A DNA stretch of 64,000 nt from a bacterium EF100-94H03 bin56 (GTDB taxonomy: Bacteria > Pseudomonadota > Alphaproteobacteria > SP197). The DNA is taken from positions 1 to 64,000 of the forward strand of contig MPMV01000006.1 in NCBI GenBank assembly GCA_002238685.1. Direction: 5' to 3'. A program made the position numbers and the translations under genes. This document shows, one piece after another, positions 33,150 to 63,245 of this stretch. The notes below the pieces were generated by a model that worked only from the letters and a program-made list of their open reading frames with translations, did not search any database and was not told the DNA's origin. Positions within the stretch are counted from its first letter, which is position 1. Every line of letters begins with the position of its first letter.

Positions 33150-33674
33150 TCAGAGATCGTTCCACGGGGAATTCGACTTGCGCGAATAGTCCGCGTCGCC
33201 ATCGAGGATCTGCTGTTCGACCTCGACCCAGTTCTCGCGGCCTTCGACCACACCGTCCTCGATGCCATTGTCGACCCATTTCTTGCGGACCTTGGCATTC
33301 CAGTTAAGGAACAGCTGGTCGTCGTGGACGGTCCAGGCCTGTTCCGGATCGACCTCGGCCGCGTACTCGCCCTTCGTCAGGGCATAGGCGCACCAGCCGC
33401 CGAACTGCGGAGCGTAGGCTTCGGGATCGCCGGCGAAGAGGTCGCGGTTGGCAGCCGATGTAAAGTGCCAGGTGGCTCCCTGCCAGTCGTGGGAGAATTC
33501 CGCCGATCCCATGACGGCACGATTCTCCGTGAAGTAGGCAACGGTATCCCAGCCACCGATGGCCACCCCCTCAGGAGTGATGTTGACCGATGTCTGCATG
33601 TCTGCCTGCACGTGACCGCCCACGGCGAGGCCGAACACGACCAGGATGGCACCGAGAGTCTTGCAGCGTGTCAT
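33150..33674 (-). CDS. Secreted YHS-domain protein
   Basis: Protein of 174 residues with signal peptide (LGAILVVFGLAVGGHVQA) and a YHS-family domain: IGGWDTVAYFTENRAVMGSAE, HDWQGATWHFTSAANRDLF, and PQFGGWCAYALTKG. YHS domains are linked to metal (often copper) handling, but secreted stand-alone forms are uncharacterised. GGGAG six bases before 33674 fixes the start. It ends 26 bases before the amidotransferase gene begins, so the two may share a transcript. Confidence 0.85.
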   Translation of the reverse strand: MTRCKTLGAILVVFGLAVGGHVQADMQTSVNITPEGVAIGGWDTVAYFTENRAVMGSAEFSHDWQGATWHFTSAANRDLFAGDPEAYAPQFGGWCAYALTKGEYAAEVDPEQAWTVHDDQLFLNWNAKVRKKWVDNGIEDGVVEGRENWVEVEQQILDGDADYSRKSNSPWNDL

Positions 33675-33730
33675 GACCATCTCCCGTTAATTCAGGTCCG
33701 TGGAGTGTAGCAGACCATGCCAGGGATCTT

Positions 33731-34957
33731 TCAATGCCGTGTTGCCACATCTCCGCCCTGAACGGCGGCGTGGAGCGGATTGAACCCCACCTGATAGGCA
33801 AGGGCATTGGGATGGTTGATGTCCCAGATGGCCAGATCCGCCCGCTTGCCCACGCTGAGTGTGCCACGATCACCCAGGAGTCCGAGCGCCCGTGCAGACT
33901 GTCTCGTCACACCGGCGAGAGCCTCTTCGGGAGTCAGACGAAAGAGAGTCGACGCCATGTTGAGCATGAGCAGCAGCGACGTCACCGGGGAACTGCCCGG
34001 ATTGCAGTCGGTAGACACGGCCATGGCAAGGTCGTGGCGGCGCATGAGATCGACCGGCGGCATGGTGTCCGCACGCAGTACATAGGCGGCACCGGGAAGC
34101 AGCACGGCAACGGTTCCGGCGCGCGCCATGGCCTGTGCTCCGTCGGGCGAGAGATACTCCAGATGATCGCATGAGAGCGCGTCATGGCGGGCCGCGATCT
34201 CGGCGGCGCCACATTCCGAGAGCTGTCCGGCGTGGAGCTTCACCGGCAGACCGAGATGGCGGGCGCCGGCAAGGATGCGATCCGTTTCCTCGGCCGTGAA
34301 GGCAATGTGCTCGCAGAAGACGTCGACGGCGTCCGCCAGCCTGCAGGCGACGACCTCAGGCATCACCCTCGCGCAGACAAAATCCACATAGTCGTCCCTT
34401 CTGCCGTCGAACTCGGGCGGCAGGGCATGCGCGCCCAGGAACGTGGTCACGACACTGACCGGGCGCATCGTCGCAAGATGTCTTGCCGCCCGCAGCATGG
34501 TGCATTCGGTATCGAGGTCGAGACCGTAGCCCGACTTGATCTCGACCGTGGTGACACCCTCGGCCAGCAACGCGTCGAGGCGCGGCAGGGCCGCGTCGAC
34601 CAGTGCTTCGAAACCGGCCTTACGGGTGGCGCGGACCGTGGAGAGAATGCCGTGTCCTGCCTTGAGAAGATCCTCGTAGGACACGCCCTCGAGACGGGCC
34701 TCGAATTCGTCGGCCCGGTCGCCGCCGTAGACCAGATGGGTGTGGCAATCGATGAGTCCGGGAGTCATCCAGCGTCCGTCGAGGCGATGCACCTCGCGGG
34801 CGAGCGCTCCGGCGTGACCCGGCAGGGCGTCACGCCTGCCGCAGAACACGATGCGCCCCTCGCTGATGCCGAGCGCGCCGTCATCGATCACGCCATAGGC
34901 GCCACGGCCTTCCTCCATGGTGGCGAGGCGAACGTCCAGCCAGAGCATATCCCACAT
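33731..34957 (-). CDS. hutI: Imidazolonepropionase
   Basis: Histidine catabolism enzyme of about 408 residues that hydrolyses imidazolone-5-propionate to N-formimidoyl-L-glutamate. The amidohydrolase metal site appears in [20 protein letters not shown], with [34 protein letters not shown], and the catalytic Asp in [12 protein letters not shown]. Length and order match HutI. The start was set at 34957 by family length; the frame extends to 35032. It shares the strand with a GNAT gene upstream and is divergent from hutF, the next pathway step. HutH and HutU are not in the window. Confidence 0.92.
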
Positions 34958-35054
34958 GGAAATCACTTTCGCACCTTCGGTGCCTGACGGAAAGTCAACG
35001 CTGAGTTGAAGAGGCACCTGTTCGTCGTGCATGGCGCGACCAACAGGATCCTCT

Positions 35055-35597
35055 TCATGATCGGGCTCTCATGTCCGATACAGAAAAAGTCATGACGTTG
35101 AGTTGGACATTATCTCCACCAGGCCCCGGAACAAGCCGTTCTTCGAAGGCTCCGCCCGAATAGGTATCGATCACCCGCCGCCAGAAGAGTACGGCAGCCC
35201 TGTTTTGAGGGAACTGCACCACCTGCCAGCAGCCCATGAAGCGGTTGAAGGCGGCTTCGGCGGCCCGGCGTCCCACGCCGCGTCCTGCCCAGGGGCCTGA
35301 CACGTAGAACTGGCTCATGTTCCAGTCGACGCCGGGTACAAGGCAGTAGCGATCGATCAGGCAGAAACCCGCGACGTTTCCGTCGACCTCAATTCGAAAC
35401 GGGTGGTTGCCTTCGTTCCACGCGTACGAGAGATCCATGCGCTCGCACCGCCACGCGGCGTTTGCAACCCAATCCTCGTGAGGGCCGATCTGGCGCGCGA
35501 TGTCATAGAGGTAGAAGCGCGCCAGATCCTGCACGAGGGGAATGTCATCGCGTGTCGCTTCGATGAGTTCGACTTTGCCAGTGCGGGTTGCGTCCAT
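35055..35597 (-). CDS. GNAT-family N-acetyltransferase
   Basis: Protein of about 180 residues with the GNAT fold: an N-terminal [20 protein letters not shown] block, a central strand [10 protein letters not shown], and the acetyl-CoA pyrophosphate loop [17 protein letters not shown] (about 98-114), then [10 protein letters not shown]. The acceptor is unknown. It sits between hutI (same strand, about 100 bases on) and divergent hutF; a link to histidine use is only positional. Confidence 0.8.
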
Positions 35598-36017
35598 CAC
35601 GAATGTTCAACTCTCATTGATGCTCCATACGGCATTCTGTTGCGATCAGGCCCCTGATCTTGAGAATTCCCCTTCGATGATTGGCCCGAGCATCCTGAGC
35701 CCCTTGATCCAATGTGCTGATACGCAATGACCCGTCTGAACCGGCTCTGACTGTTTCCGTCCACCCTTGCTTTCGACATGCCGGAAGCGGAGCGCGGGCG
35801 GCGTGTGGTTCTGCGCAGAACTGAGATGCGAGACACACGGCCAGAAACGAGGAGCCTCCGGGAGCCGGGCGTGCGAACTCGTGTGAGATGCCGGGGTGCT
35901 GTTGACGCCTGCATGGTGGTGCACACACTTTCGCCCGGTGACCTGCGGGAGACAAGACTTGCGCACGTCCGACTGTGCCGACTATTGCTGTCTCCTGGTG
36001 TTCGCGGAGCGACCGAC
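35598..36017. other. Divergent intergenic region, no gene seen
   Basis: About 420 bases between the GNAT gene and hutF. Frames run through it on both strands but without recognisable domains. Promoters for both directions, and a possible hut operator, would be expected here; I cannot identify one with confidence. Confidence 0.35.
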
Positions 36018-37388
36018 ATGCCCCATACCGTCTGTCACGCGCCGTCGGCGATGCTGATCGACGGCTGGGCCGATGATGTCCTGATCACCATCGACGCCAA
36101 CGGGATGATCGAGGCTGTGGCCGCCGGCACGCCGGCACCGCCCGGATCGATTCGCCTTGCCGGGCCGGCCCTACCGGGGATGGCCAATCTACACAGCCAT
36201 GCCTTCCAGCGGGCCATGGCAGGACTGGGGGAAAGGGCGGCGCCGGGGACGACGGACAGTTTCTGGAGCTGGCGCGAGGCGATGTATCTCTTCCTCGCGC
36301 GCCTTGGGCCCGACGAGATCGGCGCCATCGCTGCCCTGCTCTACCTCGAGATGCTCAAGACCGGCTACACGGCGGTCGGCGAGTTTCACTACCTGCACCA
36401 CCAGCAGGACGGCACGCCCTACGATGACCCCGCCGAAGTCGCCTGGCGCCTCGTCGACGCCGCGCAACGCACCGGTATCGCGATGACACTGCTCCCGGTC
36501 CTCTACACCTTCGGCGGGTTCGGCGAAGCTCCTGCGGAACCGGGCCAGCGCCGGTTCGTCAATGACAGCGATGCCTACCTGCGGCTCATGCAGGCGCTTG
36601 GCCGAGCCCGCGACGGCGGAGTCAGGCTGGGAATCGCTCCTCATTCCCTGCGCGCCGTCGGCAGGACCGGACTGACGGAGGCGCTCGCCTTTGTTGACGA
36701 CAGCACACCCGTCCACATCCACATCGCCGAACAGCGGCGTGAAGTGGCGGAATGCCTCGCATGGTCGGGACGACGTCCGGTCGACTGGCTCCTTGAGAAT
36801 GTCCCTGTCGACAGGCGATGGTGCCTCGTCCACGCAACCCACGTGACGGCGGACGAGGTCGCGCGGATGGCGGCGAGCGGCGCCGTGGCCGGCCTGTGTC
36901 CGACGACCGAAGCGAACCTGGGCGACGGCATGTTTCCCCTGGGATCCTACATGAAGCGGCGCGGTGTCTTCGGAATAGGCTCCGACAGCCATGTGTCGAC
37001 GAGCCCGGTCGAGGAGTTGCGGTGGCTTGAGTATGTCCAGCGGCTCCGCCGCAGGCGCCGCTGCGTGGTCTCCACGCGGGACGTCCCTCACACAGGCGAG
37101 GCCCTGTGGCGGTCTGGCCTTGCCGGTGGCGCCCGGGCGCTCGGGCAGACGGCCGCCGGATTGCAGCCCGGCGCGCCGGCGGATGTCATTGTCCTGGATG
37201 CCGATCACCCGTCTCTCGTCGCCCGCAGACACGGCCAGGTACTCGACAGCTTCATCCTGTCCGGCAATGGCAACCCGGTTCGGGACGTGTTCGTCCGGGG
37301 CCGTCATGTCATCAACCGGGGCCGCCACGCCATGGAAGACCGGATCACCCGTGACTATGCGGCGGTGATGCGTGCGATGACGGGTTGA
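36018..37388 (+). CDS. hutF: Formimidoylglutamate deiminase
   Basis: Amidohydrolase of 456 residues that converts N-formimidoyl-L-glutamate to N-formyl-L-glutamate and ammonia, following HutI in the five-step histidine pathway. Motifs: ALPGMANLHSHAFQRAMAGL (metal HxH), GEFHYLHHQQDG, HIHIAEQRREVAEC, LVHATHVT, and IGSDSHVSTSPVEELRWLE with the catalytic Asp. GGAG upstream supports ATG 36018; the open frame before it is a leader without homology. Only hutI is nearby; hutH, hutU and hutG must lie elsewhere. Confidence 0.92.
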   Translation: MPHTVCHAPSAMLIDGWADDVLITIDANGMIEAVAAGTPAPPGSIRLAGPALPGMANLHSHAFQRAMAGLGERAAPGTTDSFWSWREAMYLFLARLGPDEIGAIAALLYLEMLKTGYTAVGEFHYLHHQQDGTPYDDPAEVAWRLVDAAQRTGIAMTLLPVLYTFGGFGEAPAEPGQRRFVNDSDAYLRLMQALGRARDGGVRLGIAPHSLRAVGRTGLTEALAFVDDSTPVHIHIAEQRREVAECLAWSGRRPVDWLLENVPVDRRWCLVHATHVTADEVARMAASGAVAGLCPTTEANLGDGMFPLGSYMKRRGVFGIGSDSHVSTSPVEELRWLEYVQRLRRRRRCVVSTRDVPHTGEALWRSGLAGGARALGQTAAGLQPGAPADVIVLDADHPSLVARRHGQVLDSFILSGNGNPVRDVFVRGRHVINRGRHAMEDRITRDYAAVMRAMTG

Positions 37389-37454
37389 GAACTCCGGTTT
37401 GCCCGCAGCCGCCGCATGGCCTATGAGCACAAGGCAGTGATGGGGCCGCGATCA

Positions 37455-38975
37455 ATGGCACGAATGTCACGAAGAGGTCGTCAGCGACGCACAAGGGGCG
37501 CCCGTGATCAGCCGGCCTGGCGCCCGCCGGTCAACCCATTCGCGCCCATGGAGGCGGTGTCCCGGGATGAGATCGCCTTCATCCAGGACCGGTCCCTTGC
37601 CGTTCTCGAGGAGATCGGCATTGAATTCCTGCACGAGCGGGCACGTGCAGTGTTCCATGACGCAGGCGCCGACGTGGACCGCGGCACGTCCAGAGTGCGC
37701 CTGCCCCGGCAGCTTGTCGCGCATGCCATGGCCTCTGCACCCCGCACCTTCAAGCTCCATGCCCGCAACCCGCAACGCTCGCTCACCATCGGAGGCAACC
37801 GGATTGCCTTCACGCCGGTTGCCAGCCCGCCCTTCGCACACGATCTCGAGCGGGGACGCCGCGAAGGCAACTTCAGGGACTTTTGTGATTTCCTGCGCCT
37901 GGCTCAGGGGCTCAACTGCCTGCACTTCTTCGGCGGCTACCCGGTCGAGCCGACCGACCTTCCCCCCGCCACCCGGCATCTCGACTGCCTCGCAGCCTTT
38001 GTCACGCTGACCGACCGGGCCTGGCACGCCTATTCGCTCGGCGCGGAACGAATCGACGATGCCCTCTCCATCATCTGTATCGCCAGAAACCTGTCGCGCC
38101 AGGAACTGAAGGAAGAGCCGAGCATCGTCACCGTGGTCAATGCCAACTCGCCATTGAGGTTCGACACTCCGATGCTCGATGGCATGCTGACCATGGCCGA
38201 ACACAACCAGCCGGTCATCGTCACCCCCTTTACACTGGCAGGCGCCATGGCGCCCGCCAGTGTGGCCGGAGCCGTCACCCAGCAGAATGCCGAGGCCCTT
38301 GCCGGCATGACGCTGGTGCAGCTTGTCAACCCGGGAGCTCCGGTGGTCTACGGTGGTTTCACCAGCAATGTGGACATGAAGACGGGCGCCCCCGCTTTCG
38401 GCACACCCGAATACGCCCGGGCGACGATGATCGGTGGCCAGCTCGCGCGTCTCAATGGCGTTCCCTACCGTTCGAGCAATGCCAACGCCTCCACGTCGGT
38501 CGATGCCCAGGCCGCCTATGAAAGCCAGATTTCCCTGTGGAGTGCCGTGATGAGCCACGCCAACATCGTGCTGCACGGAGCCGGGTGGCTTGAGGGCGGA
38601 CTGGTCGCCAGCTTCGAGAAGATGGTGATCGACGCTGATACCATCGAGATGATCTGCCAGGTTCTGGAGCCTGTGGAGGTGACCGACGAGGAGATCGGCA
38701 TGACGGCCATGGCGGAGGTCGGCCCGGGCGGGCACTTCTTCGGCACCGGCCACACCCTCGAGCGCTACGAGACGGCCTTCCACGAACCGATGGTGTCGGA
38801 CTGGAGGAGTTTCGAGAGCTGGAACGATGCCGGTGGCATCGACGCAACCGGACGCGCCTCAGTCCTTGCCCGCACGCTCATCGACTCCTGGGAAGCGCCT
38901 GCGCTTTGCACCGACATTGCAGCGGAACTCGACGACTTCGTCACCCGCCGCAAGGCCGAGATCCTGCGCGGGTGA
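37455..38975 (+). CDS. MttB-family methyltransferase, non-pyrrolysine (paralog 1)
   Basis: Protein of about 506 residues of the trimethylamine-methyltransferase superfamily (COG5598). Pyrrolysine-containing MttB demethylates trimethylamine; members without it (MtgB type) use glycine betaine or other quaternary amines. The frame crosses the usual pyrrolysine region without a UAG (block YRSSNANASTSVDAQAAYES). Other blocks: NPFAPMEAVSRDEIAFIQDR, FFGGYPVEPTDLP, VYGGFTSNVDMKTGAPAFGT and EVGPGGHFFGTGHTLERYE. ATG 37455 aligns with the start of the next gene; upstream ATGs exist at 37416 and 37440. No corrinoid protein gene lies nearby, so the methyl acceptor is encoded elsewhere. Confidence 0.88.
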   Translation: MARMSRRGRQRRTRGARDQPAWRPPVNPFAPMEAVSRDEIAFIQDRSLAVLEEIGIEFLHERARAVFHDAGADVDRGTSRVRLPRQLVAHAMASAPRTFKLHARNPQRSLTIGGNRIAFTPVASPPFAHDLERGRREGNFRDFCDFLRLAQGLNCLHFFGGYPVEPTDLPPATRHLDCLAAFVTLTDRAWHAYSLGAERIDDALSIICIARNLSRQELKEEPSIVTVVNANSPLRFDTPMLDGMLTMAEHNQPVIVTPFTLAGAMAPASVAGAVTQQNAEALAGMTLVQLVNPGAPVVYGGFTSNVDMKTGAPAFGTPEYARATMIGGQLARLNGVPYRSSNANASTSVDAQAAYESQISLWSAVMSHANIVLHGAGWLEGGLVASFEKMVIDADTIEMICQVLEPVEVTDEEIGMTAMAEVGPGGHFFGTGHTLERYETAFHEPMVSDWRSFESWNDAGGIDATGRASVLARTLIDSWEAPALCTDIAAELDDFVTRRKAEILRG

Positions 38976-39083
38976 CAGGTGACCGACAACCAGGGGCCCC
39001 CTGGCGTCGCGGGTGCCTTGTCACCGGGTGGGGACTGCTTCCATAGTGGGGGCATGAAGGGCTGTTCCTGAGGGGAGCGATTC

Positions 39084-40619
39084 ATGGCACGCCGTACCCG
39101 GTCCCGCCGCAGGAGCAGTGAACGGTCACGCTCGGCCGCACCCCGCCAGCTTCCCTGGCGCGAGGTGCACAATCCCTTTCCCCCTCTCGACATTCTCTCG
39201 GCGGACCAGATCGAACATGTCCACGGCGCTTCCCTCGACGTTCTCGAGGAACTCGGCATGGAGATTCTGGGCGGGGATGCGCGGCAGCTCTACCGCGAGG
39301 CCGGCGCCGATGTCGATGAAAGCTCCATGCGTGTGCGGTTCGACCGCGGTCTCATCGAGGAGGCGATGGCGACGGTGCCGCCTGAGTTCACCCTCCACAG
39401 CCGGATCGCGGAGCGCTCCATCACGCTTGGAGGCAACCATATCGTCACCACGGCGGTGTCGAGCCCTCCGAACGTCTCCGACCTCGACAACGGCCGGCGT
39501 CCCGGCTGCTTTGAGGACTTCCGCAACCTGGTGAGGGTGGCCGCCAGTCTCAACTCCATACACTTCTTCGCCGGCTATCCCGTCGAGCCCATCGATCTGC
39601 CGGTGCCCACCAGGCATCTTGACTGCTACATGACCTTCATCACCGAGACCGACCGTGTCTGGCGTACCTATGCGCTGGGTGCCGAACGCAGCCGTGACGG
39701 CATCGAGATGAACCGCATTGCGCGGGGCATCGACGTGGACGAGATGATCGCCCGGCCGGGCCTCATCACGCTCATCAACACCAATTCGCCATTGCGCCTC
39801 GACGAACCCATGAGCCAGGGCCTCATCGAAATGGCCCGCGCCGGTCAGGCGGTCGCCATCACACCGTTTACACTGCAGGGCGCCATGGCGCCCTCCACCC
39901 TTGCCGGGGCCCTCGTGCAGCAGAATGCCGAGGCCCTGGCCGCCCTGGCGCTGATTCAGATCGTCAGGCCAGGCACACCATCCGTCTATGGCGGATTCAC
40001 CAGCAACGTCGACATGAAGTCGGGAGCACCGGCCTTCGGCACCCCGGAATATGTCAGGGCGACCCTTGCCAGCGGACAGCTGGCGCGCCGCTACAACATG
40101 CCTTTCAGGACCAGCAACGTCAGCGCTTCCAACGCGGTCGACGCCCAGGCCGCCTACGAGAGCGGCATGTCACTGTGGGCGGCCTTCCTCGCTCACGGCA
40201 ACCTCATCCATCACGGCGCCGGCTGGATGGAGGGTGGCCTGGTGGCCAGTTTCGAAAAGATGATCGTTGATGCCGAATTGATCCAGGGCATGTTCGAGAT
40301 CATGGAGCCGATTGTCGTCAACGACGCCGAAATCGGCATGGAGGCGATGGCGGACGTCGGCCCGGGTGGGCACTTCTTCGGTACCGGCCACACCCTGGAG
40401 CGCTACCAGACCGCCTTCTACGCACCGCTTCTCTCGGACTGGCGCAACTTCGAGACCTGGGTCGAGGCGGGAAGCCCCGACGCCAGCCGGCGCGCCAACC
40501 GCATCTGGAAACAGCTTCTGGCGGAATTCCAGGAGCCGCCTCTCGATCCGGCGATCCGCGAGGAACTCGAGGACTATGTCGCCCGCCGCAAGGCCGAAGG
40601 CGGCGTCCACGACAACTGA
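39084..40619 (+). CDS. MttB-family methyltransferase, non-pyrrolysine (paralog 2)
   Basis: Protein of 511 residues, a tandem paralog of the preceding gene with the same blocks throughout (NPFPPLDILSADQIEHVHG, FFAGYPVEPIDLP, VYGGFTSNVDMKSGAPAFGT, FRTSNVSASNAVDAQAAYES, DVGPGGHFFGTGHTLERYQ). Again no in-frame UAG at the pyrrolysine position. GGGGAG six bases before ATG supports the start. The two copies differ at many positions, so the duplication is old and substrates may have diverged. About 108 bases separate the genes. The operon of oxidative enzymes on the other strand converges on it. Confidence 0.88.
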   Translation: MARRTRSRRRSSERSRSAAPRQLPWREVHNPFPPLDILSADQIEHVHGASLDVLEELGMEILGGDARQLYREAGADVDESSMRVRFDRGLIEEAMATVPPEFTLHSRIAERSITLGGNHIVTTAVSSPPNVSDLDNGRRPGCFEDFRNLVRVAASLNSIHFFAGYPVEPIDLPVPTRHLDCYMTFITETDRVWRTYALGAERSRDGIEMNRIARGIDVDEMIARPGLITLINTNSPLRLDEPMSQGLIEMARAGQAVAITPFTLQGAMAPSTLAGALVQQNAEALAALALIQIVRPGTPSVYGGFTSNVDMKSGAPAFGTPEYVRATLASGQLARRYNMPFRTSNVSASNAVDAQAAYESGMSLWAAFLAHGNLIHHGAGWMEGGLVASFEKMIVDAELIQGMFEIMEPIVVNDAEIGMEAMADVGPGGHFFGTGHTLERYQTAFYAPLLSDWRNFETWVEAGSPDASRRANRIWKQLLAEFQEPPLDPAIREELEDYVARRKAEGGVHDN

Positions 40620-40623
40620 ACCG

Positions 40624-41787
40624 TCACGCGCCGCGGAGTTCCCCCGTCGCCCGGGAGGCGGAAAGACCATCGAGGCGGGGTGTCCCGGCCTGCATCATCG
40701 CCTGTCTCAGGTCTGCGTGGATGATGCGGATGGCATGGTCGACGCAGGCCTCTCCGCCGGCCGCAACCGCGTAGGCAAAGGCCCGGCCCATGAGAACGAA
40801 GTTGGCGCCACAGGCGATCATGCGGGCAACATCGATGCCTGAGCGCACACCGCCGTCGGCCAGCAGGGGGTAGTCGGCACCAACGGCCCTGCGGATGGCC
40901 GGCAGCACCTCGACCGGAGTGGGGGCCGCATCGAACTGGCGGCCGCCATGGTTGGAGACGGCCACGGCATCAACGCCCATGTCACGCATCCTCACGGCAT
41001 CATCGGGATCGAGGAGTCCCTTGACGATCATGGGACCCTTCCAGCGTTCGCGCAGGCGTTCGAGCTTTCCGGCGGTCACCCGGCCATCCACCATGCTCGC
41101 CAGGTGCTCTCCCCTTTGCGCCAACGGGAGGCCTTTCGTCATGTAGTTCTCAAGCGTGCGGAATCGGGGGATTCCGGCGCGCAGCATGGCCAGAGCCCAG
41201 GCAGGACGGGCCATGATGTCCATGAGCGTCGTGCGATCGAACCGCGGGGGCACGGAAAGGCCGCTGGCAATGTCGCGTTCGCGCCGGGTGCGGGTGGGGA
41301 CGTCGACCGTCACGACAAGTACCGAGACGCCGGCGGCTTCAGCCCGGTCCACGATGTCGTTCTCGATTGCGGGGTCCGCGGTGCAGTAGAGCTGGAACCA
41401 GAGACTGCTCCCGGCTATGGCGGCGATCTCCTCGACGGACATGGTGGCGAAGCTGCTCAGGCACACGGGCAGGCCATGGCCGGCGGCGGCGCGCGCGATC
41501 AGCGCCGGAGCGTTCGGCCAGATCAGCCCCGTCAACCCCAGCGGGGCGGGGGCAAAGGGAAGCGGCCAGGTGCGGCCGAACAGCGTGACGGAGAGATCCG
41601 GTTCGAATGCCTCGTCAACGATCGCACGAGGTGCGAGAACGACCCTGCGCAGGGCATCCATGTTGGCCGCAAGGCAGACTTCCCTGTCGATTCCTCCCTC
41701 CAGATAGCCAAGGGCAAAGCGCGGCACCCGGCGGGCCGCGCCCTCCTGCATCGCATGAATTGAAGGGAACCGCCTGTTGAGTGTCAT
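40624..41787 (-). CDS. FMN-dependent alpha-hydroxy-acid oxidase/dehydrogenase
   Basis: Protein of 387 residues of the LldD/glycolate-oxidase family, which oxidises 2-hydroxy acids to 2-oxo acids. Motifs: LPFAPAPLGLTGLIWPNAPA (FMN site), LWFQLYCTADPAI, VTVDVPTRTRRERDIASGL, MIVKGLLDPDDA, the active-site His in AVSNHGGRQFDAAPTPVEVL, and LLADGGVRSGIDVARMIACG. It is the last of three coupled genes: its ATG overlaps the GMC gene stop as ATGA. Lactate, glycolate, mandelate or a betaine-derived hydroxy acid are possible substrates. Confidence 0.9.
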   Translation of the reverse strand: MTLNRRFPSIHAMQEGAARRVPRFALGYLEGGIDREVCLAANMDALRRVVLAPRAIVDEAFEPDLSVTLFGRTWPLPFAPAPLGLTGLIWPNAPALIARAAAGHGLPVCLSSFATMSVEEIAAIAGSSLWFQLYCTADPAIENDIVDRAEAAGVSVLVVTVDVPTRTRRERDIASGLSVPPRFDRTTLMDIMARPAWALAMLRAGIPRFRTLENYMTKGLPLAQRGEHLASMVDGRVTAGKLERLRERWKGPMIVKGLLDPDDAVRMRDMGVDAVAVSNHGGRQFDAAPTPVEVLPAIRRAVGADYPLLADGGVRSGIDVARMIACGANFVLMGRAFAYAVAAGGEACVDHAIRIIHADLRQAMMQAGTPRLDGLSASRATGELRGA

Positions 41788-43388
41788 GGGGCGTTGCGCT
41801 CGCCGGTGATGAGATCGCTTGCCTTCTCGCCAATCATGATTGCCGGGGCGTGGGTGTTGCCGCTGGTGACACGAGGCATGATCGAGTTGTCGGCTATGCG
41901 AAGACCGTCGAGTCCCAGCAACCTGAGATCGGGACCGACCACGGAACGCGGATCACCAGGCGCGCCCATGCGGCAGGTGCCGGCGAGATGGTGAGTGATG
42001 CCGATACTCCCGCTCACCCACCGGTCGAGGTCGGCTGGCGACGTCACTGTGGCACCTGGGTCGATCTCGCGTCCCCGCAAGCCGTCGAATGCCGGCTGCG
42101 ACACGATGTCCCGGATCATGCCGGTGCCGGCACGGAATGTTTCGCGATCGCGCTCTTCGGCGAGAAAGTTGAAGCTGAACCGTGGCAGGGCCTGCGGGTC
42201 GGCCGAACGCAACCTCACGGTTCCACGGCTCTTGATGCCTACGAGTTCCGTGTAGACCCCGAAACCGTCGGCCAGCGCGTCGGCATAGGTCATGCCCACC
42301 AGCATGGGCGTGAAGGTCATCTGGATATCGGGCCACGGCGCATCGTTGCCGGATCGCAGGAAGCAGCCGACGTCCATGTGGTTGGTGGAGGCGACACCCT
42401 TGCGGTCGACAAGCCATCGCACGCCTGCCAGCCAATTCTTCGGCGGCCGTGTCCATGACGCCAGTTTTTCCGCTTTCCTGGCGGTGTAGCCGCAGCGGAT
42501 GGTCGGGTGCGTGTGGAGGTTGGCGCCGACACCCGGAAGCTCGTGGCGCACTTCGATTCCGTACGGTGCGAGTGCGCCGGGATCACCGATACCCGAAAGC
42601 ATGAGCAGCTGCGGTGAACCGATGGCTCCGGCACAGAGAAGGATCTCCCTGGTCGCGTGAACCGTCTCGTGGCGTCCGCCACTCCTGACGACCACACCGG
42701 TGACCCGGGCCGCCTCGACGACGAGACGATCGACGGGGGTATCGCAGCGGATGACAAGATTGGGGCGACCGATGCAGGGCCTCAGATACTCTGTCCACAC
42801 ATCGCTCCTCTCGCCACCGCGCGTGTTGCGATGCAGGACGGCGATCCCCTCCTGATCCGGTCCGTTGTAGTTGTCGTTGAAGGCAAGGCCGGCCTCGACC
42901 CCTGCCTCGAGAAAGGCTTCGTTGAACATCGAGGATTGGGGATTGCCGCGCGACACGGCGATGGGACCCGATAGCCCCATGTGGGGATCGGTGGAATCGT
43001 CGAAGCTCTCCACGCGCCGGAAAATGGGCTCGACATCCCGCCATGACCAGCCGACCGCCCCGTCCGCCGCCCAGCTGTCAAAGACACCGGGCGCGCCCCT
43101 CACCCACAGCAAGGCGTTGATCGAGGAGGATCCTCCAAGACCCTTGCCCATCTTGTAGGGATAGGATCTGCCGGCGGCCAACTCTTCCGGTTCGGACCTG
43201 TAGTCCCAGTGGTAGCGGCCCGACTGATAGAGAGACAGGACGCCCGCCGGAACGCGGTGCATCAGGGACCGGCGGCCGGTGCCGGCCTCGAGCACGAGAA
43301 CGCGGACCGCCGGATCTTCCGTCAAACGCGCCGCGAGTACCGAGCCCGCCGTCCCGCCGCCGGCGATGATGTAATCGAAGTCCGTCAT
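41784..43388 (-). CDS. GMC-family FAD oxidoreductase (choline dehydrogenase-like)
   Basis: Protein of 534 residues. N-terminal FAD-binding motif YIIAGGGTAGSVLAARL, the GMC signature YPYKMGKGLGGSSSINALLWVRG (residues about 80-100), GAIGSPQLLMLSGIGDP, and a C-terminal HHLAGTCRMG with catalytic His and NTHAPAIMIGEKASDLI. Best matches would be BetA-like choline and alcohol dehydrogenases. The ATG at 43388 overlaps the TGA of the ThDP enzyme gene (TGATG), and its own stop overlaps the next start, so the three genes form one coupled unit. Confidence 0.9.
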   Translation of the reverse strand: MTDFDYIIAGGGTAGSVLAARLTEDPAVRVLVLEAGTGRRSLMHRVPAGVLSLYQSGRYHWDYRSEPEELAAGRSYPYKMGKGLGGSSSINALLWVRGAPGVFDSWAADGAVGWSWRDVEPIFRRVESFDDSTDPHMGLSGPIAVSRGNPQSSMFNEAFLEAGVEAGLAFNDNYNGPDQEGIAVLHRNTRGGERSDVWTEYLRPCIGRPNLVIRCDTPVDRLVVEAARVTGVVVRSGGRHETVHATREILLCAGAIGSPQLLMLSGIGDPGALAPYGIEVRHELPGVGANLHTHPTIRCGYTARKAEKLASWTRPPKNWLAGVRWLVDRKGVASTNHMDVGCFLRSGNDAPWPDIQMTFTPMLVGMTYADALADGFGVYTELVGIKSRGTVRLRSADPQALPRFSFNFLAEERDRETFRAGTGMIRDIVSQPAFDGLRGREIDPGATVTSPADLDRWVSGSIGITHHLAGTCRMGAPGDPRSVVGPDLRLLGLDGLRIADNSIMPRVTSGNTHAPAIMIGEKASDLITGERNAP

Positions 43389-45025
43389 CAACCTTCCACG
43401 GGGTCATCCGCAAAGTGTTTCTCTTCGGAACTGATGACCTCGATCAGCGCCGGACGGTCGGTCAGGGCCAAAGCCCGTTCGAGAGCCGGCACGAAGTCGC
43501 CAGGCGCGCTCACGCGTTCGGCGTGCGCGCCGAGAGCCGCTGCCACATCCGCATAGTCCCCACCCAGTTGATGAATGCGATAGTCGCGTGCCGCCACGGG
43601 ATGGTGGTCGACGTAGCCACCCATAACCGCGTTCTTCAGAACAATCGTGATCGTGGCGAGGCGGTTGCGCACGGAGGTCTCGAGATCCATGCCCACCATG
43701 CCGATCGCCGCATCGCCCATGATGTTGATGCAGTGATGATGAGGCCGCGCCAGACGCGCGCCCTGCACAAGACCGAGACCGAGGCCGAGCTGTGTCGTCT
43801 TGCCCCAGCCGATGTACCCGTGGGGCACGAGCGTTTCATAGAAGGCCGTCATCTGGTCGCGCGGCGAACCTGCATCATGGGTGACGATGGTCGTTTCGCG
43901 ATCGACCGTCATCATGAGGTCATGAATGATGCGATAGGGACTGATGGGGACCTCGTCGGACTGCAGCCGCGGCTGCCAGGAATCCATGAAGGCCTTGCGG
44001 CGGCCGGCCACCTCGCCGGCCACTGAATCGCGCCGGGCGCCGGGATCCTTTCCGAGAATCTCCACCATGCGCTCCAGGGTCGCACGGGCATCTCCGATGA
44101 TGCCGATGTCGACCGGATAGTCCTTGGATACATCGCCTTCCCAGTTCGTCAGCTGGATGAAGCAGCGATGGCGGGTCGGGAACGGCGTGATGTATTCCGA
44201 CCGCGTGAAGCTCGTGCCGAGACCGAGGACAAGGTCGGACTTTGAAAGGAAATGCGCCGCCTCGCCGCGCCGGGTGCGGCCCGCACATCCCAGGGAAAGC
44301 GGGTGGTTCTCCGGAAAGGCGCTCTTGCCGTTCAGTGTGGTGAGAACCGGAATTCCGGTGCTTTCGGCAAACGCTGTCAACGCCTGCGATGCACCGGCGT
44401 AGAGAATGCCCTGACCCGCCACGATGACAGGTGACGAAGCCTTCCGCAGACAGGCGAGGACTTCGCGGATCTCGGCATCGGCGGCCACGGGCCGCGATGC
44501 CTTCTGGGGGCGGTAGCTCTCCTCGAGACGGGGATCGACCGTCGTGTTGGCCACATCCTTTGGCACCTCGAGAACCACCGGCCCGGGACGGCCGTTGCGC
44601 AGCATGGCAAAGGCGTTCTGCATCATCTGCGGAATACGCTCCACATCCGGCACCATGGCGCACCACTTCGCGACATGCTGCATGCTCTGGCTGGCCTGGA
44701 AGTGGGAATCGAGCGGCTGCCTCATGCGGTCGTATCCGAAGGGGATGTGGAGCACCGGCACGTTGTCGGCATGGCACTGGGCGACGGCGCCGAAGGCATT
44801 CTCCGATCCGGGCCCGTACTGCACGGTTGTGCAGGCGATCCTGCGGCCTCCCGTCACGCGGGCATAGCCGTCGGCAATGTGAAGGGCCTGGCGTTCCTGG
44901 CGCACGATGACGGGCCGGATGCCCACCTTGGCCGCGGAATCGATGAGGTCGCTGTGCGGAAAGGCGGGAAGAATGTCGACTCCTTCCCTGGCGAGGATGC
45001 GGGCAACGAGATCGGCGCCATTCAT
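43388..45025 (-). CDS. Thiamine diphosphate-dependent enzyme, acetolactate synthase-like
   Basis: Protein of 545 residues with the three-domain ThDP fold. The catalytic Glu lies in VIVRQERQALHIADGYAR (about 49), the ThDP motif is GDAAIGMVGMDLETSVRN followed by LKNAVMGGY, and the middle domain has SSPVIVAGQGILYAG. Acetolactate synthase, sulfoacetaldehyde acetyltransferase, oxalyl-CoA decarboxylase and benzoylformate decarboxylase share this plan. It heads a coupled operon with GMC and FMN oxidases, which favours a catabolic carboligase or decarboxylase. GGGAG nine bases upstream of 45025 supports the start. There is no small regulatory subunit. Confidence 0.85.
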   Translation of the reverse strand: MNGADLVARILAREGVDILPAFPHSDLIDSAAKVGIRPVIVRQERQALHIADGYARVTGGRRIACTTVQYGPGSENAFGAVAQCHADNVPVLHIPFGYDRMRQPLDSHFQASQSMQHVAKWCAMVPDVERIPQMMQNAFAMLRNGRPGPVVLEVPKDVANTTVDPRLEESYRPQKASRPVAADAEIREVLACLRKASSPVIVAGQGILYAGASQALTAFAESTGIPVLTTLNGKSAFPENHPLSLGCAGRTRRGEAAHFLSKSDLVLGLGTSFTRSEYITPFPTRHRCFIQLTNWEGDVSKDYPVDIGIIGDARATLERMVEILGKDPGARRDSVAGEVAGRRKAFMDSWQPRLQSDEVPISPYRIIHDLMMTVDRETTIVTHDAGSPRDQMTAFYETLVPHGYIGWGKTTQLGLGLGLVQGARLARPHHHCINIMGDAAIGMVGMDLETSVRNRLATITIVLKNAVMGGYVDHHPVAARDYRIHQLGGDYADVAAALGAHAERVSAPGDFVPALERALALTDRPALIEVISSEEKHFADDPVEG

Positions 45026-45146
45026 CGTGACACACTCCCGGATGAGACGGTTTGCGACCCTACGGGTGTTGCGGGAGGGCCGCAATCAGGTTGCGGTCAT
45101 CATTGACCCTTGCCGGCACTTCGCATAAACATCGATCGAAACCTGA

Positions 45147-52602: not shown

Positions 52603-52947
52603 GTGGCAGGTGATCACAATGCACCGGTTCGTCCGGGAGAAGAACGCACGTTCGATGAGCCGTGGCAGGCGCGCATCTTCGCCATGGTCAATGCCATGCA
52701 CGGCGCCGGTCACTATGACTGGCGCGCCTTCCAGGAACTGCTGATCGACGAGATCGCAAGTCACGGCTCGGCGGATGGCCACGACTACTATGAACGCTGG
52801 CTTGCGGCTGCCGAGCGCCTCATCATCGCCCGGGGCTTCGGCGACAGGAAGGAACTCGCCATCATCCGCCAGCGCCTGGAAGACCACCCGCCTCCGCGCA
52901 CGACATCGACGGTCGCACCCCTTGCCGTGGAACCGGCGGTGACATGA
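52603..52947 (+). CDS. Nitrile hydratase accessory protein-like, orphan
   Basis: Protein of 114 residues matching the N-terminal domain of the nitrile hydratase beta subunit as found in accessory/activator proteins: FDEPWQARIFAMVNAMHGAG (about 17-36), YDWRAFQELLIDEIA and YYERWLAAAERLI. Such proteins help insert the Fe or Co cofactor or form part of related thiocyanate hydrolases. The start codon is GTG after a GGAG. No alpha or catalytic beta subunit is in the window. Its stop overlaps the start of a DadA-like oxidase (ATGA), and a COG0523 metal GTPase, a family that includes nitrile hydratase activators, is encoded nearby. Confidence 0.8.
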   Translation: MAGDHNAPVRPGEERTFDEPWQARIFAMVNAMHGAGHYDWRAFQELLIDEIASHGSADGHDYYERWLAAAERLIIARGFGDRKELAIIRQRLEDHPPPRTTSTVAPLAVEPAVT

Positions 52948-54326
52948 GAAGTGTCTGGCTGACGCAGGCGATGGCGGCGGATGCCGCTGCCGGTATCACG
53001 TCGCTCGAGGGCGACCTTGCGGTCGATGTCGCCATCGTCGGCGGCGGTTACACGGGCCTTTGGACGGCCATCGAACTTAAGCGGCGTGATCCCTCGCTCG
53101 ATGTCGCCGTCATTGAACGCGATGTGTGCGGTGCCGGAGGAAGCGGCGCCAATGCCGGCTTCGCCTTGCCCATGTGGCTTCAGGTTCCGGCACTGGAACG
53201 TGCCGGAGGGACCGACGCTGCCCTCCATATTGGCCGGGCTTCCATCGATGCAATCGACGACATCCGCGCCCTCGCCGGCAAGGGTGGCAATGACATCTCC
53301 ATGAGCAGCGCGCCGACGGTCTGGGCGGCGACCTGCCAGAAACAGTCGGGTCACTGGGACGACATGCTGGACCTGATGGAATCCCGGCAGATCCACAGCT
53401 TCCGCCGTCTCGGGGCCGACGAAATCCGGTCGCTGACGGGCAGCAACGCGCTTGTTGCCGGTGTTGTCGACACCGCGAGTGCCACCCTCCATCCCGGCCA
53501 TCTGGTACGGGCCCTGAGGCGCGAAGCCCTCTCCCTGGAGGTCCGTGTCCTCGAGAAGACGGCGATGACACGCCTTCGGCGCTCGACCCCGCCCGGCGTC
53601 ATCACCGCCCGTGGCACTGTCACCGCACGCAAGATCGTGCTGGCTCTTTACGGGTGGTCCCTCTCCTTGCCGGAGATCAGGCCGGCCCTCATGGTGATGG
53701 TCACCGATGCGGCGATGACCGTGCCCGTTCCAGGTCTCCTCGACTCCCTCGGTGTTGCCGGTGCGCCGGGATTCACCGATTCGCGCACCTTCATCGAATC
53801 CTGCCGGCCGACGGCGGACGGACGCATTGTCGTCACCAAGTCGGGCGGCGCCCTTCCCTTCGGAGACCGGATCGATGCCTCGCTCAAACGCACGCGCCGC
53901 AGCACCCGGGAACTGCGCGCCATCATGGCAGCCTATCACCCGGCACTCGCCGACGTCGCCATCGAGGGGACCTGGTGCGGTCCCATCGACAGGTCCCGTG
54001 ACGGGCTTCCCCTGTTCGGACACCTCGGATCATCGCCGGACATCGTCTTCGGTTGCGGGTACTCCGGCGCCGGTATCGTGCCGTCGCGGGTCGGAAGCCA
54101 CATCCTCGCCTCGCTGGTCCAGGAGAGGGACGACGCATGGAGCCGTTCGCCCCTGGTGGGGCAGCCGGAACGGGCCTTTCCCCGGGAACCCTTCCGCTGG
54201 ATCGGCGGCCACGCGGTACGTGCCGCCATCGAACGCAAGGACCGTCTCGACCACGAAGGCCGGGAACCGGGACCGCTGACCCGTTTCTGGCTCCGCTTCA
54301 AGCCGGTGAGCTACAAGCCGTCCTGA
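52944..54326 (+). CDS. FAD-dependent amino-acid/amine oxidase (DadA/DAO-like)
   Basis: Protein of 460 residues with the DAO fold. The Rossmann motif VDVAIVGGGYTGLWTAIEL starts near residue 28, followed by VIERDVCGAGGSGANAGFA, VDTASATLHPGHLVRALRR and a C-terminal GLPLFGHLGSSPDIVFGCGYSG, with a tail of about 80 residues. Relatives oxidise N-methyl or D-amino acids, sarcosine or gamma-glutamyl-putrescine. It is coupled to the nitrile hydratase accessory gene by an ATGA overlap. Its 3' end overlaps the convergent COG0523 gene by 29 bases. Confidence 0.88.
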   Translation: MRSVWLTQAMAADAAAGITSLEGDLAVDVAIVGGGYTGLWTAIELKRRDPSLDVAVIERDVCGAGGSGANAGFALPMWLQVPALERAGGTDAALHIGRASIDAIDDIRALAGKGGNDISMSSAPTVWAATCQKQSGHWDDMLDLMESRQIHSFRRLGADEIRSLTGSNALVAGVVDTASATLHPGHLVRALRREALSLEVRVLEKTAMTRLRRSTPPGVITARGTVTARKIVLALYGWSLSLPEIRPALMVMVTDAAMTVPVPGLLDSLGVAGAPGFTDSRTFIESCRPTADGRIVVTKSGGALPFGDRIDASLKRTRRSTRELRAIMAAYHPALADVAIEGTWCGPIDRSRDGLPLFGHLGSSPDIVFGCGYSGAGIVPSRVGSHILASLVQERDDAWSRSPLVGQPERAFPREPFRWIGGHAVRAAIERKDRLDHEGREPGPLTRFWLRFKPVSYKPS

Positions 54327-55263
54327 GCCAGTTCTCGAGTTCCTGGCGCGTTGTCCCTTCGGCGATGGCGACGAGAACCGGCGCCGCCACACCTCCGGGC
54401 CATGTCTCCAGCACCCGCGGCCTGTGAAAGAGGTGCTGCACACCGTCAATCGCCACCGGACCCGCCGCGCCATCGACATCGAGCAGACCCTTGAGCCGCA
54501 ACAGGCGCTCGCCATGGCGTGCCACGAGAGAGCCGACGGCGCCTTCCACCTCGAGCCATGTCAGCGGACGGATGTCCTCCAACGTGACCGAGACGATGGA
54601 TCCGTGGCCGTTCCCACACGGCATGTCATCGAAGTCCATGGCAAGCGGCCGGCGCAGCACGTCCCGGGGATCCGCCCTCCCCATCGGCGCCTCGACAATC
54701 CGGGCACGCCCGTTGCGGCGTCTCGCCTGGTCCATGACATCGCTGGAGGATGCCAGATCACCCTTGGTGATGACGATGGTGTCGGCGAGCGCCAGCTGGC
54801 GTCCGGCGTTCCGGTGGCGGTCGATGGAGAGCGAACCGTTCACGGCATCGAGACAGGTCACCACACCCCCGGGATCAAAGAGGGAGAGTCTCAGGGGATC
54901 GGTGATGAAGGTCTGCAGCAGCGGCACCGGATCGGCCAGGCCCGAGGTTTCGATGACCACCCGCCGGAAGGCCGGCACCTCGCCCCTTTCGCGGCGCTGA
55001 AGGAGATCAAGAAGAGTGGAAACGAGGTCACTTCTCAGACCACAGCACAGACAGCCGTTCTCGAGCAGGAGGATGCTGTCTTCGCTTGTCTCGACGAGCA
55101 CGTGGTCGAGACCGGTCTGGCCGAATTCGTTGATGATCACCGCCGTGTCGGCGAACTCCGGCGCCTGCAGCAGATGCCGCAGCAGGGTGGTCTTGCCACT
55201 TCCCAGGAACCCCGTCACCACGATGACCGGCAGCCTGTCGGCATCGGGCACGATGACGGTCAC
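54298..55263 (-). CDS. CobW/COG0523-family GTPase (metal chaperone)
   Basis: Protein of 321 residues. Walker A GFLGSGKTTLLRHLL (about 18-32), the family metal motif GCLCCGLRSDL (CxCC type, about 69), IETSGLADPVPLL, the NKxD-like TKGD, and a short C-terminal CobW_C domain with VAIDGVQHLFHRPRVLETWP. Family members deliver Zn, Co or Fe to target enzymes, including nitrile hydratases. It is the last gene of a four-gene operon in which each junction is an ATGA overlap (SDR, SDR, M20, GTPase), so the M20 metallo-amidohydrolase is a natural client. Confidence 0.9.
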   Translation of the reverse strand: MTVIVPDADRLPVIVVTGFLGSGKTTLLRHLLQAPEFADTAVIINEFGQTGLDHVLVETSEDSILLLENGCLCCGLRSDLVSTLLDLLQRRERGEVPAFRRVVIETSGLADPVPLLQTFITDPLRLSLFDPGGVVTCLDAVNGSLSIDRHRNAGRQLALADTIVITKGDLASSSDVMDQARRRNGRARIVEAPMGRADPRDVLRRPLAMDFDDMPCGNGHGSIVSVTLEDIRPLTWLEVEGAVGSLVARHGERLLRLKGLLDVDGAAGPVAIDGVQHLFHRPRVLETWPGGVAAPVLVAIAEGTTRQELENWLRTACSSPA

Positions 55264-61565: not shown

Positions 61566-63245
61566 TTGGTCGATCGCGCTCTCCGCACGGGCCGGTTTGA
61601 AACGGATCTCGATGCCAATCCGGCCAATCACGAACCGCTGACCCCGGTCGACTTTCTGCTGCGTTCCGCAACGGCACACCCCTTGCGGACCGCATGGATT
61701 TACGGGTCGCGGCGCGTCACCTACGCCACCATGCACGAACGGTGCCGGCGGCTGGCGAGCGCGCTTCGCCGGCACGGCGTCGAACCGGGCGAGAGCGTTG
61801 CCGTCATGGCGCAGAACGGTCCTGCAATTCTCGAGGCCCATTTTGCGGTGCCCATGGCGGGCGCCGTCCTCAACGCCCTCAACTTCCGCCTCGATGCACC
61901 ATCCATCGCCTTCATGCTGGGTCATGCCGGGACCCGGGTCCTTATCGCCGACCGCGAGTTCCGGGACGTGATCGGTCAGGCTCTCGCCCGCCACTCCGGC
62001 AAGGTCCACGTCATCGCCATCGACGATCCCGATACCGACAATGACCCTTCCTTCGGCGATGTCGCTTACGAGGATTTCGTGGCCCAGGGCCGTGCCGATG
62101 ATGAACCGCTGCTTCCCGCAGACGAGTGGAATGCCATCTCCCTCAACTACACCTCCGGTACCACGGGCAATCCCAAGGGTGTGGTCTACCACCACCGCGG
62201 CGCCTATCTGAACGCCGTCGCCAACGGCATGGCGCTGGGTTTCTCCGGGAGCACCGTCAACCTGTGGACCCTGCCGCTCTTCCACTGCAACGGCTGGTGC
62301 CACGCCTGGGGCGTGACCGCCTGGGCGGGCACCCACGTCCTGCTGCGCCGAATCGACACCAGGGAGATCTTCCGCCTCATCGCCGAACATGGCGTCACCC
62401 ACATGTCCGGTGCCCCCATTGTCCTCAACATGATCCTCAATGCACCGGCGGACCACCGGCGCACCTTCCCCTCCAGGGTCACCATCGCCACCGGCGGCGC
62501 CGCACCGCCGAGCGCGGTCATCGCCGGCATGGAGGAACTCGGCTTCCATGTCATCCATCTCTACGGTCTCACGGAAACCTACGGACCGGCCCTCGTTTCG
62601 CCCTACCAGGACGACTGGATGGCGATGCCGGTGGAAGACCGGGCGGCCGCGATGTCGCGCCAGGGCCTGCGCCACCCCATGCTGGCCGGCTACATGGTCG
62701 CCGACCCCCGGACCTGCGCACCTGTGCCCGCCGACGGCGAGACGATCGGTGAGGTCATGGTGCGTGGCAATACTGTGATGAAGGGATATCTCGACAATCC
62801 GCAGCAGACCGCCCGTGACCTTGCCGGTGGCTGGTTCCACAGCGGTGACCTCGGTGTCATGCATGGCGACGGGTACATCGAGGTCAAGGACCGCTCCAAG
62901 GACATCATCATCTCGGGCGGCGAGAACATCAGTTCCATCGAGGTGGAGAACGCCCTCTACCGTCACCCTGGTGTGCTGGAAGCGGCGGTTGTGGCGAGGA
63001 AGGACGAGACCTGGGGCGAAACACCGTGTGCCTTCGTCACCCTCAAGGACGATTCCGCACAGTCCGTGACGGAGGCCGACATCATCGCCTTTTGCCGTGA
63101 CAACCTCGCCCACTTCAAGGTGCCGCGAACCGTGATCTTCGGGCCCTTGCCCAAGACGGCGACCGGCAAGATCCAGAAATTCGCCCTGCGCGAGAAAGCA
63201 GACGCCATCGCCGGCAGCAGCGGCAAGGCAGCCGTCACGTCATGA
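61566..63245 (+). CDS. AMP-forming acyl-CoA synthetase
   Basis: Protein of about 559 residues of the adenylate-forming family. Motifs: NYTSGTTGNPKGVVYHHRG (phosphate loop, about 197-215), LPLFHCNGWCHAWG, IHLYGLTETYGPAL, GWFHSGDLGVMHGDGYIEVKDRSKDIIISGGENISS and the C-terminal Lys in PKTATGKIQKF. It resembles fatty-acyl and methylmercaptopropionate ligases, and carnitine/crotonobetaine-CoA ligases are relatives. The start is TTG at 61566, about five bases after AGGTG. Its stop overlaps the carnitine dehydrogenase start (ATGA), so both act in one pathway, probably on carnitine-derived or other short-chain acids. Confidence 0.9.
   Translation: MVDRALRTGRFETDLDANPANHEPLTPVDFLLRSATAHPLRTAWIYGSRRVTYATMHERCRRLASALRRHGVEPGESVAVMAQNGPAILEAHFAVPMAGAVLNALNFRLDAPSIAFMLGHAGTRVLIADREFRDVIGQALARHSGKVHVIAIDDPDTDNDPSFGDVAYEDFVAQGRADDEPLLPADEWNAISLNYTSGTTGNPKGVVYHHRGAYLNAVANGMALGFSGSTVNLWTLPLFHCNGWCHAWGVTAWAGTHVLLRRIDTREIFRLIAEHGVTHMSGAPIVLNMILNAPADHRRTFPSRVTIATGGAAPPSAVIAGMEELGFHVIHLYGLTETYGPALVSPYQDDWMAMPVEDRAAAMSRQGLRHPMLAGYMVADPRTCAPVPADGETIGEVMVRGNTVMKGYLDNPQQTARDLAGGWFHSGDLGVMHGDGYIEVKDRSKDIIISGGENISSIEVENALYRHPGVLEAAVVARKDETWGETPCAFVTLKDDSAQSVTEADIIAFCRDNLAHFKVPRTVIFGPLPKTATGKIQKFALREKADAIAGSSGKAAVTS

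Follow-up and report, generated by a model that had tools for sequence, protein, structure and literature searches.

Two diverged MttB-like methyltransferase genes stand in tandem at positions 37,455 to 40,619 of contig MPMV01000006.1 (assembly GCA_002238685.1) of the alphaproteobacterium EF100-94H03 bin56 (GTDB lineage SP197), with no corrinoid protein gene beside them, and the locus raises the question of which compound they act on. We analysed the pair within the first 64,000 nucleotides of the contig (the window, read on the forward strand), within the rest of its genome and among its relatives. The conserved partners of the pair are genes of histidine utilization (hut), not the oxidation genes that adjoin it, and from sequence comparison we tentatively favour a role in demethylating a histidine-type betaine, hercynine (N-alpha-trimethylhistidine) or a relative, through a shared corrinoid hub. 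The two genes are:

W1: open reading frame (ORF) 37416-38975, plus strand, 519 amino acids, PF06253; likelier coding span 37455..38975
W2: 39084-40619, plus strand, 511 amino acids, PF06253 (MttB/MtgB-like)

PF06253 covers nearly the full length of both proteins (W1, E 1.7e-193, 643.7 bits; W2, E 4.2e-199, 662.1 bits; cut-off 25 bits), in agreement with the family named in the original prediction, which was made from the sequence alone. Comparison with W2 makes the internal ATG at 37455 (residue 14 of the frame opening at 37416) the likelier start of W1. Neither gene has an in-frame TAG and both end in TGA, so that the earlier statement that UAG is absent holds and pyrrolysine decoding was rejected; the equivalog profile for pyrrolysine MttB, TIGR02369, gives 303 bits for W1 and 310 for W2, under its cut-off of 525, and the column of MttB Pyl334 is occupied by A356 in W1 and V346 in W2. 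The best structural relatives of both in the PDB are 4yyc and then 2qne/9yce, with the pyrrolysine enzyme 7xcl far lower. As an enzyme class, W1 and W2 are very probably nonpyrrolysine quaternary-amine:Co(I) corrinoid methyltransferases, and the expectation that they act on quaternary amines was right at that level. They are 55% identical, diverged paralogues side by side as first described, and the closest paralogue of W2 is a third copy on contig C40 of the same genome (57%), not W1. A promoter and terminator scan gave no useful result.

The lack of an adjacent corrinoid or methyl-tetrahydrofolate gene had been singled out as a point of interest. The window belongs to contig C25 of a genome (G000) of 4.53 Mb in 102 contigs, 98.45% complete, and a profile search of that genome found no match to PF02607 (B12-binding_2) or PF00809 (Pterin_bind) anywhere on C25, so the absence itself stands. 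PF06253 matches this genome at 17 loci, at one of them only in part, and by pairwise identity the loci fall into a group with MtgB-like copies (C18, C48a, C67, C48b, C92 and the partial C53), a group B of six with mutual identities of 42-57% (W1, W2, C40, C64, C76, C33), a group of four (C19, C91, C42, C11) and C36 alone. Set against these are one PF02607 protein and two PF00809 proteins, one of the latter MtgD-like, with all the matches on contigs C69 and C48. The hub run reads:

Contig C69: MtgC-like, DUF1638, MetF-like, short MTHFR (methylenetetrahydrofolate reductase) C-terminal-domain protein, second MetF-like, MtgD-like, RamA-like

The hub MtgC scores under the curated NCBIfam MtgC cut-offs (202 against 370 and 177 against 310 bits). 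MetH was not found in the G000 assembly, where no protein joins B12-binding_2 to Pterin_bind, and a 410-residue open frame has two matches to the MetE C-terminal domain (PF01717). Stand-alone MtgC, MtgD, RamA and DUF1638, with MetH not found, are the marks of an MtgBCD(E) hub. The same disproportion is seen in all 16 genomes of the family, each with 10-18 PF06253 loci and either one B12-binding_2 match (14 genomes) or two (G009 and G002), and in three relatives mtgC lies on the pair's own contig, at about 33 kb (G014), 44 kb (G007) and 57 kb (G006). One shared MtgC hub probably serves the many MTTB proteins, W1 and W2 included. Because such a hub exists elsewhere in the genome, the absence of a corrinoid gene beside the pair is to be expected, and we no longer regard it as a point of interest.

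The conserved context lies upstream of W1, and in the window it comprises:

33150..33680, minus strand, YHS-domain protein, PF04945 slightly under cut-off
33731..35032, minus strand, HutI, imidazolonepropionase, TIGR01224 457 bits against a cut-off of 298
35055..35600, minus strand, GNAT acetyltransferase between hutI and hutF, also present in G010 and G011
36018..37388, plus strand, HutF, formimidoylglutamate deiminase, TIGR02022 610 bits against a cut-off of 413, start chosen by homology

The hutF gene shares its strand with W1, and 66 bp separate its end from the start of W1 at 37455; the YHS-domain protein is a recurrent neighbour in relatives too, placed on the side where the hut genes are. 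W1 (at least 60% identity) is present in 13 of the 16 family genomes, and W1 and W2 are tandem and adjacent on one contig in 11, although a small ORF separates them in G002 and 0.8 kb in G014. The two genes of G012 fall at contig edges, each on a contig of its own, and only one W1/W2-type copy is present in G015. At least one of hutH, hutU, hutI and hutF is found in the fetched flank of 12 of the 13 genomes with W1, across four genera, and the thirteenth (G003) is not judgeable on the relevant side, as only 0.3 kb of its contig precedes W1. The flanks contain:

G007: hutH, hutF, hutI, hutU
G006 and G002: hutU, hutI, hutF, hutH
G004 and G012: hutI, hutF, hutH
G000, G010 and G011: hutI, hutF
G001 and G015: hutH
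G014: hutU
G009: the end of hutF, where the contig stops

The association extends beyond the family to Geminicoccus flavidas (locus L091), with hutU 0.75 kb from the orthologue, and to a gammaproteobacterial metagenome-assembled genome (L094), with hutH 3.3 kb and hutF 7.4 kb away. All HutF, HutI, HutH and HutU proteins tested (from the window, contig C52, G007, G002, G015, L091 and L094) pass their NCBIfam cut-offs; the remaining hut assignments in relatives are tblastn matches. In seven genomes (G006, G007, G012, G001, G002, G004 and G015) hutH is divergent from W1, whereas hutF is upstream in the window's subclade. Divergent partner genes are known in the MttB family, mthB and mthK being a case (PMC12155760). 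Among the open-licence papers listed, a hut-linked MTTB subclade appears to be unrecorded, the family and the hub being already known, and none links MttB-family genes to hut genes or to hercynine.

The linked enzymes point to histidine as the compound that joins the two sets of genes. HutH of G007 scores 581 bits to 1gkm, a histidine ammonia-lyase of solved structure from Pseudomonas putida, and 173 bits to the ergothionase 6s7j, and HutU of G002 and of L091 score 712 and 707 bits against a thiourocanate hydratase cut-off of 930. An ergothioneine/thiourocanate pathway was rejected on these scores. Since the linked HutH and HutU tested score as ordinary enzymes, histidine itself should be the joining intermediate, and among quaternary amines hercynine is the obvious source of histidine by demethylation. 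We propose that W1 and W2, as MtgB-type proteins, each bind a quaternary ammonium compound in the pocket of a TIM barrel and transfer one methyl group from it to the Co(I) corrinoid of the separate, shared MtgC encoded elsewhere in the genome. The MtgD-like protein would pass the methyl group on to tetrahydrofolate, the MetF-like proteins would then oxidise it, and the RamA-like protein would re-reduce the hub cobalt. The substrate would be a histidine-type betaine, for example hercynine or a close relative, from which the remaining methyl groups may be removed by enzymes resembling sarcosine oxidase (the sox operon described below for G007 is a candidate), and the freed histidine would enter HutH, HutU, HutI and HutF. 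The two paralogues may divide two related substrates between them. Taken as a whole, a corrinoid route from histidine betaine to histidine in which the tandem enzymes act on hercynine and a close analogue, a single methionine-synthase hub takes the methyl groups and the ordinary hut pathway takes the histidine is rather unlikely to be right in every part.

Several observations, set out here and in the next two paragraphs, weigh against a histidine-type betaine. Within the subclade of the window, hutH and hutU are missing from the W1/W2 locus, other copies being on contig C52. The nonpyrrolysine MttB-family enzymes described in the papers cited here act on quaternary amines, so that further enzymes would be needed to reach free histidine. 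On a tree with 89 labelled rows, of which 14 are hut-linked, the link requires only 3 parsimony changes, and the genomes are therefore not independent but reflect few events; shared gene order may account for part of the link, and no hut match was found at more distant orthologues in other Alphaproteobacteria, which share 54-64% identity. The small number of events and the lack of hut at distant orthologues suit an alternative that we consider possible, if doubtful, in which the substrates would be common betaines (such as glycine betaine, carnitine, butyrobetaine or proline betaine), demethylated via the hub, and hut would be nearby through gene order or through common regulation of nitrogen or one-carbon metabolism, not through a shared substrate. 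Characterised relatives use glycine betaine, proline betaine, gamma-butyrobetaine, carnitine or phosphocholine (PMC12478193), and in G007 a single island of about 57 kb mixes mtgC, sox genes, an MtgB-like gene, W2, W1 and hutH-F-I-U, its sarcosine-oxidase operon having soxD and soxA over their cut-offs and soxG under. However, G000 has 15 further MTTB loci, and no hut query matches in their fetched flanks, nor at any of 102 other subfamily loci (75 named, 20 from the class and 7 in-family paralogues, at least 4 of the class loci repeating named ones and some contigs being short). The 75 are what remains of 80 named loci after removal of three from genomes already counted (L089, L090, L105) and of L091 and L094; the class loci come from a sample of 385 Alphaproteobacteria, in which 15 genomes outside the family had a strong W1 match and 20 loci were fetched. 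The link has also outlasted local rearrangement, as the two positions of hutH and hutF show.

The pocket gives evidence of both kinds. Docking into an apo structure of MtgB proposed Y94, N199, R309 and H345 as substrate residues (PMC6855144). N199 corresponds to N242 in W1 and N232 in W2, R309 to R352 and R342, and H345 to H387 and H377, and these three are kept in all 25 rows aligned from the W1/W2 clades. A loss of substrate residues in both paralogues, named in advance as the outcome that would tell against the original prediction, was not seen, with three of the four retained and Y94 replaced, by alanine in W1 (A136) and serine in W2 (S126). The loss of this aromatic residue weakens the transfer of the MtgB pocket model to the pair. 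F353 of MtgB is a glycine in both proteins, as it is in 4yyc, and a carboxylate-binding set without an aromatic wall would be compatible with a bulkier betaine, which we count as weak evidence. At 16 columns, including F140/N130 and H204/R194, fixed residues distinguish the twelve W1 rows compared, which exclude G015, from the twelve W2 rows. AlphaFold models were too poor to use for either protein (W1, mean pLDDT 62.1 and pTM 0.70 from 12 alignment rows; W2, 42.1 and 0.46 from 11). A sister relation of the W1 and W2 clades has a support of 94 in one tree with G015 but of only 11 for the same set in a larger tree.

A further alternative, which we judge unlikely, is that the substrate was set by an older cassette of desaturase, XRE regulator, GFA and phosphonate-binding genes (Pfam FA_desaturase, HTH, GFA and Phosphonate-bd). 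In that case it would be a different osmolyte or betaine, one that might give off formaldehyde when oxidised, and the hut link would be secondary. At least one cassette gene is present at 10 of the 20 class loci and at least two at 8, and at least one lies near W1/W2-type genes in five family genomes (G001, G002, G006, G014, G015) and in L094. Since the cassette is found at the loci of distant orthologues, the substrate may predate the hut link. Against this alternative, we did not find the cassette next to W1 and W2 in the subclade to which the window belongs, where hutI and hutF are present, and we know of no function for it in an MTTB setting. An example at L066 15417-18433 has FA_desaturase, an XRE regulator, GFA and a phosphonate-binding-like protein, and the arrangement recurs beside group-B MTTB genes in Alphaproteobacteria.

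It is very unlikely that W1 and W2 form unequal halves of a mixed hexamer, one catalytic and the other structural or regulatory: MttB is a hexamer in which the dimer partner contacts the corrinoid protein (PMC9842639), and the tandem is strict in 11 family genomes, but both paralogues keep the same pocket residues, and in G015 the single W1/W2-type copy adjoins hutH, so that one gene can suffice. That the two are decayed or inactive paralogues, as the replacement of Y94 in both might suggest, is extremely improbable given their open frames, strong conservation across the aligned family rows (W2 73-96%, W1 60-94% identity) and the invariant asparagine, arginine and histidine.

On the other side of the pair, the window contains three oxidation-related genes:

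40624..41787, minus strand, flavin mononucleotide (FMN)-dependent alpha-hydroxy-acid dehydrogenase, convergent with W2
41784..43391, minus strand, glucose-methanol-choline (GMC) oxidoreductase, choline-dehydrogenase-like, under equivalog cut-offs
43388..45085, minus strand, thiamine pyrophosphate (TPP)-dependent enzyme of PRK06154 type, NF004807 709 bits against a cut-off of 607

The original prediction had drawn its substrate clue from carnitine- and choline-like oxidation genes nearby. Such genes are present in a loose sense, but the GMC protein is under both choline-dehydrogenase cut-offs (527 against 605 and 495 against 732 bits), and an L-carnitine-dehydrogenase-like gene, itself under cut-off (315 against 414 bits), starts at 63242, 22.6 kb past W2, and runs beyond the window end. 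The trio adjoins the pair in only 4 of the 13 genomes with W1 (G000, G009 in part, G010 and G011; G012 is not judgeable, its contigs ending at the pair). A carnitine/choline degradation cluster was accordingly rejected as the conserved context, and the clue did not hold; the conserved hut cluster had gone unmentioned. The region 61566-64202, which extends past the window end, has an acyl-CoA synthetase (NF006020, over cut-off) followed by the L-carnitine-dehydrogenase-like gene. Elsewhere in the window, 52944-54326 encodes a flavin adenine dinucleotide (FAD) oxidoreductase resembling a putative aminophosphonate oxidoreductase (406 bits against a cut-off of 633), and adjoining it at 54298-55263 is what appears by eye to be a CobW-type GTPase.

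Other MTTB loci of G000 have neighbours of their own. The C18 paralogue adjoins an FAD-GcvT protein (dimethylglycine-dehydrogenase-like by eye), and the partial MTTB at C53 (L029 9613-12520, profile positions 290-495), perhaps a decayed copy, adjoins dimethylglycine-dehydrogenase-like pieces, also by eye. The neighbours of the MTTB paralogue at C67 (L018 7067-10782) include a PF05544 proline racemase, a PF02574 protein resembling homocysteine S-methyltransferase and what looks by eye like an ATP-binding cassette transporter of betaine type. This paralogue is a candidate demethylase of proline betaine or hydroxyproline betaine that would have a methyl acceptor of its own. G000 has 12 PF02574 loci, far above the seeming need for methionine synthesis. 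After the group-B MTTB at C40 (L017 3041-6821) come a Rieske oxygenase subunit with similarity to glycine betaine monooxygenase (under cut-off) and a gene that looks hydroxyacid-dehydrogenase-like, and a similar Rieske-type neighbour is seen by eye after the MTTB orthologues in G008 and G005. At C91 (L173 118-7040) there are an L-carnitine-dehydrogenase-like gene (under cut-off) and a BKACE-type gene by eye, with a diverged aromatic-amino-acid-lyase homologue and an aldehyde dehydrogenase nearby.

The hut-tied subclade offers a concrete, testable substrate class among the MttB-family genes of this bacterial family, most of which have no assigned substrate, and the family illustrates the reach of the shared-hub design, with 10-18 methyltransferase loci in a genome that has one or two corrinoid-protein matches. 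If correct, the assignment to a histidine betaine would add an aerobic sink for hercynine-type compounds and would connect, in invertebrate symbionts, the breakdown of host- or fungus-derived betaines with the metabolism of methionine and one-carbon units. The window's bacterial family presumably contains sponge symbionts, judging by the names of its metagenome-assembled genomes. A single deep-sea marine sponge has yielded both 6-methylhercynine and cyanocobalamin (PMC8779493), which we count in favour of the histidine-betaine reading.

The nearest parallel to this organization is in Ruegeria pomeroyi, in which MtgB-type proteins share an MtgC and MtgD also used in methionine synthesis (PMC12478193). 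As in its MtgBCD/MtgCDE system, the pfam06253 genes lie apart from one corrinoid protein, with MtgD, DUF1638 and RamA and no MetH, whereas marine bacteria of that type are credited in the same paper with up to seven pfam06253 genes, compared with 17 loci in G000, and the pair is of another subfamily and is hut-linked. The glycine betaine methyltransferase MtgB of Desulfitobacterium hafniense (2qne, 9yce) is homologous to W1 and W2 over the full length and shares N199, R309 and H345 with them, but not Y94 and F353. MttB, the pyrrolysine trimethylamine methyltransferase (7xcl), is also homologous, whereas W1 and W2 have no UAG and carry Ala/Val at the Pyl334 column, and 4yyc, a putative trimethylamine methyltransferase, groups with the C18 paralogue and not with the pair, in spite of being the best match of both. 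In Eubacterium limosum MtpB, MtcB and MtyB all methylate one corrinoid protein, MtqC (PMC12155760), and MtcB and MtyB, 53% identical, provide a precedent for two paralogues as divergent as W1 and W2 serving two related substrates through one corrinoid protein, although theirs are L-carnitine and gamma-butyrobetaine and the organism is an anaerobe with 42 members of the family (PMC8604678).

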